Source of the DNA: an uncultured Clostridia bacterium
Lineage (GTDB): Bacteria; Bacillota; Clostridia; Lachnospirales; CAG-274
Assembly: GCA_949948985.1 (NCBI GenBank)
Contig: CATLIG010000004.1
Span: 1 to 64,000, forward strand
Reading direction: 5' to 3'
DNA: 64,000 nt
The notes beneath the pieces were generated by a model. The model worked only from the letters and a program-made list of their open reading frames with translations, was not told the DNA's origin and made no database searches. Positions within the stretch are counted from its first letter, which is position 1. The number at the start of each line of letters is the position of its first letter. This document shows, one piece after another, positions 319-60,141 of this stretch. Position numbers and translations under genes: made by a program.

Positions 319-506
319 AAAACTAACACTTATGTTAATAAATACCTTAAAAGCATATAAACAATTTAAAATGACTTTTTACTTTATAGTAATTTTATTT
401 TCTGTAATTATTGAAAATTTTATAAAAAAGCAACTGACCACTTTAAAAAAACACATTTTGACCATTTTAAAGATGTCAAATAAGCTTTATAATTCTATAA
501 ACGCAA

Positions 507-672
507 TAGACCTCCTAGGAAACTAGCAAATTGACAGATAAATGCAGATTTTGCTGATAGGCGAATTAAATTTTCGCCGTAATACTCGCAGTGGTATTTC
601 AAGAAAATTTAATAAAGCATATCGGAAAAAGATGTGCTTAGATGGGATTTTCTATGTTTCCAAGGAGGTCTA
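507..672. repeat. Family C palindromic repeat, copy 1
   Basis: An element of about 166 bp with inverted ends TAGACCTCCTAGGAAAC and GTTTCCAAGGAGGTCTA, flanked by TA. A near-identical full copy is at 4027-4193 and a right-end fragment at 58510-58554. There is no coding capacity, consistent with a non-autonomous MITE. Confidence 0.8.
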
Positions 673-676
673 ATAC

Positions 677-3522: not shown

Positions 3523-3686
3523 TATAGTCAATCAACTTGAAAATGAGCAAAAGGAAACAAGATAAAAATTATTTTCGCAAGACAGTGGAAGGAGAGCGTA
3601 GCTGTAGCCTATACCGACTGACACTAACAAAGCGAAAAGGATTTTTATCCGATGAACTTGTTCAATTTTTAAGTTGATTGACTATA
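3523..3686. repeat. Family A MITE-like palindromic repeat
   Basis: A 164-bp copy bounded by TATAGTCAATCAACTTGA and AAGTTGATTGACTATA. The core contains the SD-like AAGGAAACAAG and a central hairpin. Its edge is 26 bases from the start codon of the pseudouridine synthase gene. Confidence 0.9.
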
Positions 3687-3918: not shown

Positions 3919-4026
3919 GAGTTTTTTTACACCTTTTTTTCAAAAATTTATTTGCATATTACATTATTTATGATATAATATACAAAATATAAAAATTATA
4001 TAAGCAAAACAATAGAATAATTTTAT

Positions 4027-4193
4027 TAGACCTCCTGGGAAACTAGCAAATTGACAGATAAGTGCAGATTTTGCTGATAGGTGAAATTAAATTTTCGCCA
4101 TAATACTCGCAGTGGTATTTCAAGAAAATTTAATAAAACATATCGGAAAAAGATGTGCTTAGACGGCATTTTCTATGTTTCCGAGGATGTCTA
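4027..4193. repeat. Family C palindromic repeat, copy 2
   Basis: Nearly identical to 507-672 over the full length: ends TAGACCTCCTGGGAAAC and GTTTCCGAGGATGTCTA, flanked by TTA. Degenerate family D-like AT-rich sequence (GAATTCTTTTATTGTTTAGCACTAAAAATTTTG) occupies about 4234-4346 between it and the potassium channel gene. Confidence 0.8.
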
Positions 4194-4420
4194 TTAAAAA
4201 CAGTGTAAAACACTCTTCAAAAAATTTGCTGATTATATCGAAATAATAGAAGAATAGAAGAATAAATAGATAATATTTAAAAAAATAGAATTCTTTTATT
4301 GTTTAGCACTAAAAATTTTGCGAATTTTTATAATATAGTTCTATAGATTACTATAGTTTAGTAATTCATAAAAATACTGTTATTTTATTGTTTTGCTGTT
4401 AAAGAAGGGAAATTTTTCAA

Positions 4421-9612: not shown

Positions 9613-9775
9613 TATAGTCAATCAACTTAAAAATAAGTAAGTTCGGCGGCTAAAAATCCTTTTTGCCGCGTTGCTGTCAGTCGGCATAGGCAGTCGGCTA
9701 TGCTTTCCCTCCGCCGTCTTGCAAAAATAATTTTTAACTCGCCTCCTTTTCTCATTTTCAAGTTGATTGACTATA
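9613..9775. repeat. Family A MITE-like palindromic repeat
   Basis: A 163-bp full copy, in the opposite orientation to the 3523 copy (AACTTAAAAATAAGTAAG end first). It begins 10 bases after the TolC-like stop codon, so it could serve as a 3' hairpin of that transcript. Confidence 0.9.
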
Positions 9776-21901: not shown

Positions 21902-21993
21902 TATAGTCAATCAACTTGAAAAGGAGAAAAAGGAAACGAGCAAAAAGAATTTTTTGTAGCCGAACTTACTTATTTTTAAATTGATTAACTATA
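21902..21993. repeat. Family A repeat, internally deleted (92 bp)
   Basis: Both ends are present (TATAGTCAATCAACTTGAAAAGGAG; CTTATTTTTAAATTGATTAACTATA) but the central 70 bases, including the apex hairpin, are missing. It abuts the rpsB promoter upstream side. Confidence 0.8.
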
Positions 21994-24933: not shown

Positions 24934-25097
24934 TATAGTCAATCAACTTAAAAATAAGTAAGTTCGGCAGTTAAAAATCATTTTTGCCGCATTGCCGTCG
25001 GTCGGCATAGGCAGTCGGCTATGCTCTCCCTCCGCCGCCTTGCAAAAATAATTTTTAGCTTGCCTCATTTTTCTCATTTTCAAGTTGATTGACTATA
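24934..25097. repeat. Family A MITE-like palindromic repeat
   Basis: Full 164-bp copy, same orientation as the 9613 copy. It starts 40 bases past feoB and could stabilise its 3' end. Confidence 0.9.
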
Positions 25098-26117: not shown

Positions 26118-26280
26118 TATAGTCAATCAACTTGAAAATGAGAAAAAGGAGGCGAGCTAAAAATTATTTTTTCAAGACAAGGTCGGAAGAGCATAACCAA
26201 ATGCTATGCCGACCGACGGCAACGCAGCAAAAAGGATTTTTAGCCGCCGAACTTACTTATTTTTAAGTTGATTGACTATA
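26118..26280. repeat. Family A MITE-like palindromic repeat
   Basis: Full 163-bp copy. A short TATAGTCAATACGTTAAAAA fragment at 26091-26110 just before it looks like a broken left end of another copy. It lies between the convergent kinase-like and spoIIQ genes. Confidence 0.9.
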
Positions 26281-27992: not shown

Positions 27993-28154
27993 TATAGTCA
28001 ATCAACTTAAAAATAAACAAGCTCGGCATATGAAAATTATTTTTACTGTGTTATCATCACCCGGTGCAGGACCATGCCTATGCCGGCCAACGGCAACGCA
28101 ACAAAAAGGATTTTTAGCCGCCGAACTTACTTATTTTTAAATTGATTAACTATA
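27993..28154. repeat. Family A repeat between spoIIGA and sigE
   Basis: 162-bp copy with TATAGTCAATCAACTTAAAA and AAATTGATTAACTATA ends, GCAGGACCATGCCTATGCC apex. It sits in a normally tight bicistronic junction, 65 bases before the sigE start. Confidence 0.9.
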
Positions 28155-29385: not shown

Positions 29386-29530
29386 TATAGGCAATTCCAG
29401 AATAGTGTAAGAAAATAAAAACTATTTTATTCAATATTTCTTAATACTTTCGGTATTTAAAAAACAAAACATCTTTTGCTAAAATATAAAATAAAATATT
29501 TTTTATACCTATACTAGAATTGCTGTTATA
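29386..29530. repeat. Family E palindromic repeat, copy 1
   Basis: Ends TATAGGCAATTCCAGAATAG and ATACTAGAATTGCTGTTATA; interior AACTATTTTATTCAATATTTC and CAAAACATCTTTTGCTAAAAT shared with 34173-34322. Its right end adjoins the next family A copy. Confidence 0.6.
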
Positions 29531-29850
29531 GTCAATCAGCTTGAAAATGAGAAAAAGGAGGCGAGCTAAAAATTATTTTTATAAGGCGGCGTAGAGGGCA
29601 TAGCCGATTGCCTACGCCGACCGACGGCAATGCGGCAAAAAGGATTTTTAACCGCTGAACTTACTTATTTTTATAGCAATCCAATTTAAAAATGAACAAA
29701 AGGAGATGAGATAAAATTTATTTTCGCAAGGCACCGGAAGGAGAGCATAGTCGAATGCCTATGCCGACTGACGGCAACGCAGCGAAAATAAATTTTAGCC
29801 ATCGAACTTGTTTATTTTTAGGTTGGATTGCTATAAGTTGATTGACTATA
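29527..29850. repeat. Family A repeat interrupted by a related repeat
   Basis: The outer family A copy begins TATAGTCAATCAGCTTGAAAATG and ends AAGTTGATTGACTATA, but its right arm is split after CTTACTTATTTTTA by an inserted element (29672-29835). Removing the insert and one TA restores a normal family A arm. Confidence 0.9.
29672..29835. repeat. Family A' repeat (TAGCAATCCAA ends) inserted in family A
   Basis: 164 bp including flanking TA on both sides. Ends TAGCAATCCAATTTAAAAATG and TTTTTAGGTTGGATTGCTA; interior resembles family A (GGCACCGGAAGGAGAGCATAG; GCCTATGCCGACTGACGGC). A sister family with different tips, with TA duplicated at the target. Confidence 0.9.
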
Positions 29851-34385: not shown

Positions 34386-34564
34386 TATAATCAATCAACT
34401 TAAAAATTGAACAAGTTCAGCGGATAAAAATCCTTTTCGCTTTGCTACTCGCCTATGCGTTCCAGTCAGTCGGCATAGGCTACGGCTGCGCTCTCCTTCC
34501 ACTGCCTTGCGAAAATAATTTTTATCTCGCTTCCTTTTGCTCATTTTCAAGTTGATTGACTATA
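34386..34564. repeat. Family A repeat, divergent 179-bp copy
   Basis: Left tip TATAATCAATC has one change. The interior carries an extra segment (GCTACTCGCCTATGCGTTCCAG) so the apex is longer than in other copies. Confidence 0.85.
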
Positions 34565-40337: not shown

Positions 40338-40661
40338 AGACCTGTTTAATAACCTCTGCAATGATGCTTGACAGAGCTTTTTCCGCCATACTTTATTTAA
40401 TTTTTTTGAAATACTTTTCAAGTATTAACTCAAAAATTAAGTTTCGTCTGACGAAAAAATCTCTTGTCAATCATCATCACTTAGGTTGTTATAGTCAATC
40501 AACTTGAAAAGGAGAAAAATGAAACGAGATAAAAATTATTTTTGCAAGGCGGCGGAGGGAGAGCATAGCCGACTTCATATGCCGACCGACGGCAACACGG
40601 CAAAAAGGATTTTTATCTGCCGAACTTACTTATTTTTAAGTTGATTGACTATAAACAGGTC
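40338..40661. repeat. Family B repeat interrupted by a family A repeat
   Basis: Family B ends AGACCTGTTTAATAACCT and (after the insert) AAACAGGTC are recovered when 40490-40651 is removed, leaving GGTTGT-TA-AACAGGTC. So family A jumped into an existing family B copy at a TA. Confidence 0.85.
40490..40653. repeat. Family A repeat inserted in family B
   Basis: Full 164-bp copy with consensus ends, TA on each side. Interior GCGGCGGAGGGAGAGCATAGCCGAC is close to consensus. Confidence 0.9.
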
Positions 40662-43140: not shown

Positions 43141-43304
43141 TATAGTCAATCAACTTGAAAATGAGAAAAAGGAGGCGAGCTAAAAATTATGTTTGCAAGG
43201 AGGCTGAGGGAGAGCATATCCGACTGCCTATGCCGACCAACGGCAACACATCAAAAAGGATTTTTAGCCGCCGAACTTACTTATTTTTAAGTTGATTGAC
43301 TATA
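43141..43304. repeat. Family A MITE-like palindromic repeat
   Basis: Full 164-bp copy, consensus tips, apex AGCATATCCGACTGCCTATGCC. Lies 80 bases past the M16C protease gene. Confidence 0.9.
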
Positions 43305-59957: not shown

Positions 59958-60141
59958 AAAAGGACTCTGCCGAGCCGGCTATCAATAAGGCTTAAAACCT
60001 TAAAACAAGGTGGTTGTAGCACTTTACGCTTCCTTGTTTTGCATACAATGTGCAACCTACAAATCCACATAAAGAAAACTATTATCCCGTAGAAATCGTG
60101 TTGGTTATAAACAATCAAAGATTCGTACTCGGAAGAGTTAC
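59958..60141 (-). ncRNA. Candidate structured non-coding RNA (about 180 nt) with H-type pseudoknot
   Basis: Minus-strand RNA expected to begin near 60140 from a near-consensus promoter. Its ends pair: ACTCTTCCGAG (60138-60128) with CTCGGCAGAGT (59974-59964), one mismatch. Inside, GCAC, TGTA and GTGG (60050-60068) pair with CCAC, TACA and GTGC (60010-60022) in one helix. Loop bases AAAACAAG (60040-60033) pair with CTTGTTTT (60009-60002) just 3' of it, making a pseudoknot. A small AAGG/CCTT hairpin follows (59987-60001). G+C is clearly higher than the surroundings. The 68-codon frame across it has no ribosome site. Size and style fit 6S RNA or the clostridial raiA-motif RNA; I cannot decide. 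Confidence 0.65.

Follow-up and report, generated by a model that had tools for sequence, protein, structure and literature searches.

The repeat families A and A' are very probably MITEs that are moved in trans by tip-recognising transposases of the IS630 family, through cut-and-paste insertion into TA dinucleotides with duplication of the TA. Both would be non-coding, hairpin-forming elements of about 160 bp, with tips recognised by IS630/Tc1/mariner (DDE_3) transposases. The evidence consists of the duplication of TA at insertion sites, the copy number of the repeats and the identity of their tips with the ends of IS630 elements. The cut-and-paste chemistry, established for ISY100, probably applies here as well.

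A Nested Insertion with Duplicated TA

A copy of family A at 29527-29850 of the window (the whole 64-kb stretch of DNA that was analysed) has its right arm interrupted by an A' element of 160 bp (29674-29833, + strand, TAGCAATCC...GGATTGCTA), and direct reading confirmed a TA on either side of the insert. The junctions run ...CTTATTTT-TA-[TAGCAATCCAATTT...GGTTGGATTGCTA]-TA-AGTTGATTGACTATA. By reading, tip search and consensus alignment, the left portion of the split copy, through the first TA, covers 29527-29673 and the right portion 29834-29850, both on the + strand, and the two copies of the duplicated TA were read directly at 29672-29673 and 29834-29835. The split copy retains both A tips (29527-29542 and 29835-29850) and matches the 164-bp A consensus on both sides of the insert. 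A' was taken as the inserted element; the A copy would be the older of the two, with A' entering its right arm at a TA.

Deletion of the insert plus one TA yields the arm TTTTTAAG, the modal sequence of full-length A copies (48/66); the runner-up at this place, TTTTCAAG, occurs in 6/66. Since TTTTTAAG is modal in the A arm, one TA was present before the insertion and two are present now. The earlier note had claimed that an A copy is split at a TA found on both sides and that removal of the insert and one TA restores the consensus arm; this is correct, the restored arm being the one carried by those 48 copies. Chance is excluded by the 10 paired-tip A copies in the window and by the genome-wide abundance of the tip TATAGTCAATCAACTT, which gave 222 forward and 222 reverse matches with up to two mismatches in the 3.29-Mb, 235-contig genome, against 2 and 1 matches for the reversed-pattern control under the same conditions.

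A draft of 235 contigs from a repeat-rich genome might join two repeats wrongly, and the nested structure would then be an assembly artefact. This has a negligible probability, because the consensus arm is recovered exactly to the left and right of the insert, one extra TA is left, and a second nesting, of A in A, follows the same pattern.

Copy Number and Shape of Family A

By paired-tip search, 164-bp copies were located in the window at 3523-3686 (+), 24934-25097 (-) and 43141-43304 (+), 163-bp copies at 9613-9775 (-) and 26118-26280 (+), and a short 92-bp copy without the centre at 21902-21993 (+). Tip search and consensus alignment gave a 179-bp copy with a longer centre at 34386-34564 (-). 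The 164-bp copy at 40490-40653 (+) served as the reference for orientation and folding. Both arms of the 162-bp copy at 27993-28154, between spoIIGA and sigE, resemble the right arm, so no strand was assigned to it.

In the 1.254 Mb (38%) of the genome that was covered, 125 paired-tip copies were found (132 tip pairs minus the nested outer copies). A length of 160-168 bp is shared by 66/125, with a consensus of 164 bp (TAs counted) and a mean identity of 90.7%. Shorter copies reach down to 42 bp, the most frequent short length being 77 bp, and a 208-bp size class has a longer centre. The flanking by TA that the earlier note expected was observed at both outer ends in 119/125 copies, with a search pattern that itself contains TA, but 6/125 lack it on one side.

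The 164-bp element folds into a single long hairpin (-58.2 kcal/mol, z -8.0; z -8.8 for the opposite strand), in which the terminal arms pair over about 24 bases and enclose a longer internal hairpin. None of the 125 copies lies wholly within an ORF of at least 120 aa, and 12/125 overlap one partially. Neither A nor A' encodes a transposase. Family A is thus short, non-coding, multi-copy and mostly intergenic, as is expected of an IS630-derived MITE.

The 22-base A tip (up to one mismatch) was detected in 4/48 genomes of the bacterial family, all in one genus. A 16-base tip search also found a lone 164-bp A copy in another genus of the same family (G005:C14:50849-51012; L081 1350-1513), with one mismatch in each tip; horizontal transfer is possible in this case. 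Other intergenic repeat families serve as targets for A in the window (480-675 and 4000-4196) and at many places in its genome, among them GGCGAAAATTTAATTTCGCCTATCAGCAAAATCTGCAC... and ...TTTTATTGTTTCGCACTAAAAATTTTGCGAATTGCTATA, the second of which has an end resembling TATAGCAATTC. At G000:C7:31635-31970, in the genome of the window, an A copy is interrupted by a different repeat (AGACTTCTTTCGAAAC...GTTTCTAAAGAAGTTT) that has AAT next to each end; this suggests another mobile family, one that duplicates 3 bp.

Target-Site Duplication

Insertions into other repeats were used as paralogous empty sites in the genome of the window. The strict test took 30-base flanks, required at least 75% identity on each side and left the gap free from 0 to 12; the BLAST query held one TA in this genome and was used without TA in the congener G001. 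Strict empty sites were obtained for 4/125 copies, all four with a 2-bp duplication, and TA was present in 13/16 empty-site hits. These comprised 8/8 hits with TA for C1:182437, one of one for each of C11:28467 and C15:35701, and three TA, two TG and one A for C1:192995. The last of these copies, 42 bp long (C1:192995-193036) and barely more than two tips, therefore also has an empty site with TA duplication. In G001, strict sites were found for 2/10 copies, one of which is an A copy with TA in 5/5 hits. The other is a 140-bp copy (L208:160-299) from a related family with TATAGTGAAAGAACTT tips, where TA duplication was seen in 7/8 hits.

A looser search gave sites for 20/125 copies in the genome of the window. 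In 13 of these the most frequent gap measured 2 bp, and in 7 it was TA; otherwise different dinucleotides or lengths were seen (a length other than 2 in 7/20). This search included the A copy inserted in A at C17:12328-12492, with TA in 8/9 hits. When all boundaries were shifted by seven bases as a control, 14 apparent sites appeared, TA was the commonest gap in one, and the signal was lost. Once joined, the target sites favour T to the left of the TA and, symmetrically, A to its right (0.56 vs. a background of 0.39).

None of the 21 A' copies in G001 had a strict empty site, and a single loose site read CA; the evidence for duplication by A' is therefore the nested case in the window. Insertion into TA with a 2-bp TA duplication is accordingly found for A at the four strict sites of this genome and at one in G001, and for A' at 29527-29850. 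The earlier note had also looked to empty sites in related strains. The paralogous sites agree with its expectation, but three congeners yielded no clean orthologous empty site for A, their intergenic stretches being unaligned up to the copy boundaries. The congeners are too diverged for this purpose, with flanking genes at about 68-89% identity.

The repeats could instead be functional RNA or DNA hairpins (regulatory elements, terminators or processing sites) spread by recombination and not by transposition. Their strong folding on both strands and their exclusion from the interior of ORFs would fit such a role, as would the 47 double changes at inner pairs, compared with 15.8 on average and at most 25 in shuffles, although this count takes no account of the relatedness of the copies. 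The precise ends and the TA duplication argue against it, not least at the 42-bp copy, where little but the tips is left. The TA-duplicated empty sites refute recombination as the way of spreading, and the explanation as a whole is very improbable, while acquired roles of single A copies are possible. The excess of inner-stem double changes over shuffles, seen among the full-length A copies of this genome, is confined to one strand, and the copies are related by descent; the covariation could reflect either structure kept by selection or merely the relatedness of the copies.

IS630 Elements with Matching Tips

Duplication of TA is not unique to IS630, as some IS5-group elements duplicate TA too. 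This duplication alone being insufficient, the assignment to the IS630 family was settled by the matching tips.

For A', the partner is in the congener G001. The element G001:C479 (L059 1400-2579 with outer TAs) is 1,180 bp long, has TA outside both ends and carries a frameshifted DDE_3 transposase flanked by the exact A' ends TATAGCAATCC and GGATTGCTATA. The A' tip (up to one mismatch) is abundant in G001 (65 forward and 73 reverse matches), scarcer in G002 (21 and 12), and near background in the genome of the window (17 and 8, vs. 1 and 8 for the reversed control). The A' element of the window has 94-95% identity to its best matches in these two congeners. The sole DDE_3 gene in the genome of the window (C68, 116.7 bits) is cut by a contig end; its right tip, GGATTGTTATA, is A'-like with one mismatch, and 34 residues separate D and E in its translation, counted by eye (D34E spacing).

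To find a partner for A, 84,980 species genomes were scanned for the C-terminal motif of an IS630 with the A tip after it; the seven contigs hit all belong to the MAG Lactobacillales bacterium Gsp477_bin117. The matches sit at contig ends, where multi-copy IS elements typically fall in short-read assemblies. The left ends read TATAGTCAATCAACTTGAAAATCAAAAGAGG... up to an ATG and the right ends, in reverse complement, TATAGTCAATCAACTTAAAAATCAAACTA..., and on either side 22 bp are identical to A, even in the base-17 difference between left and right. The 22-mers occur in the correct orientation in 43/66 (left) and 41/66 (right) A copies, and swapped in 2 and 0. The A-tipped partner is known from its C-terminal part, which is DDE_3, and plasmid relatives of this transposase are mostly annotated as IS630 family transposase. 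A full-length DDE_3 gene in G061 (L201) proved to belong to a different IS630 without A tips. The Gsp477 sample probably came from the lower termite Glyptotermes, to judge from a sister bin in the part of PMC11707648 that was available.

Both repeats thus share their tips with IS630-family elements, A' through G001:C479 and A through the Lactobacillales MAG, and the DDE_3 hits identify the partners as DDE transposases of IS630 type. The proposal that a TA-duplicating, IS630-type system is at work is supported by these elements and by the recurrence of the duplication in independent A insertions. The transposases that actually move the copies are probably of these kinds.

Searches by family, protein and IS-end DNA found no exactly A-tipped transposase in this draft assembly or in three congeners, and neither the IS pattern nor the A tip was found in viral contigs. 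Within the genus these searches yielded short tip matches (about 43 bases at most), A'-type IS630, and IS630 remnants whose tips resemble those of A; the congener remnants have tips two to three mismatches off (AAGTTGTTTAACTATA and AAGTTCTTTAACTATA). Possibly the A transposase dropped out of the 235-contig draft through collapse, was lost, or was only ever a short-term resident. The earlier note had inferred that A and A' are non-autonomous elements mobilised by such transposases elsewhere in the same genome, and had suggested a search for a transposase gene bounded by the same tips. The IS630 elements with matching tips agree with the first part; the location is uncertain, as the assembled draft contains one DDE_3 gene, with the A'-like tip one mismatch off, but none with exact A tips.

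The lack of an exactly A-tipped IS630 in this genome would also suit mobilisation by another TA-duplicating family, such as an IS5-group transposase, with the likeness to IS630 tips due to convergence on TATAG... ends; further TA-duplicating families do exist. Such convergence would have to reproduce 22 matching bp at both ends of the Lactobacillales IS630, base-17 asymmetry included, and also the exact A' tips of the congener IS630, and is considered very unlikely.

A Possible Single Hairpin Body with Several Tip Sets

The tip sets are TAGTCAATCAACTT in A and TAGCAATCCAATTT in A', with a third, TAGTCAAAC(T/A)ACTT, in congeners, and the tip types pair with their own kind in nearly all clean copies. 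The A and A' tips differ at 5/14 positions, counted by eye. The A' element of the window can be aligned to the A consensus with no indels, and its region shares 76% identity with the A copy at 40489.

A single hairpin body could travel with different tip sets, each of them the same as or similar to the ends of a different IS630, a tentative reading to which somewhat less than even weight is given. If true, the body would persist as a parasite by adapting its ends to each IS630 that comes along, among them the one now seen in a termite-gut Lactobacillales. Given the extent of the tip differences and the 76% identity, the two tip types are accounted for equally well by gradual co-divergence and by a swap, and their origin may lie in either. 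A body common to elements whose tips belong to different IS630s is unusual, as is the degree to which A copies outnumber any visible cognate transposase.

Host Context and Significance

The genes adjoining A copies include spoIIGA, sigE and an M23 peptidase, which point to a spore-forming member of the Bacillota as the host. The copy at 27993-28154 occupies the spoIIGA-sigE gap, a control point of sporulation. This gap is about 30 bp without insert in G001, contains another sequence in G002, and in G003 is occupied by an A-like copy that is oriented the other way and bears other tips, apparently an independent insertion. Elsewhere in the window, a 6S RNA (RF00013) was detected at 59960-60141 on the minus strand, barely over the gathering score.

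With over 200 copies, several size classes, nested events and two tip systems, the repeats form a natural set for two questions: by what means a MITE in a bacterium stays mobile although no transposase to match it is seen in its own genome as assembled, and whether such elements exchange their tips or diverge together with the specificity of the transposase.

Comparison with Known Systems

No published description of the A family was recognised in a literature search of partial coverage. ISY100 inserts into TA with TA duplication, and 34/39 of its in vitro products were normal, according to the portion of PMC2170065 consulted. A and A' resemble IS630 and ISY100 in TA insertion and duplication, and the tip-matching elements described here do so in having a single transposase gene with a DDE_3-type domain. 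However, IS630 and ISY100 are autonomous, whereas A and A' have no transposase, and autonomous ISs with A or A' tips were seen only outside this genome.

The Correia (NEMIS) elements of Neisseria also have TIRs with TA termini, target duplication and size classes with or without an internal stretch, as given in the available part of PMC2229807. They differ from A in sequence and host, and the same part of that source names no IS partner for them, whereas A and A' have IS630 partners by tip.

The repeat unit of pneumococcus (RUP), for which IS630-Spn1 is the proposed mobiliser, is like A short, intergenic, present in about 100 or more copies, targeted to TA and equipped with IS630-like tips, in the sections of PMC2229807 that treat it. 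RUP is 107 bp long with 9-bp TIRs in that account, in contrast to the 164 bp, pairing arms of about 24 bases and longer internal hairpin of A. The two also differ in sequence, and A has a sister, A', with another tip set. By analogy, A is classed as a RUP-like repeat, short, with IS630 tips and a TA target, and RUP is its closest known kind; the modest novelty here is that two IS630 tip systems serve one hairpin body.
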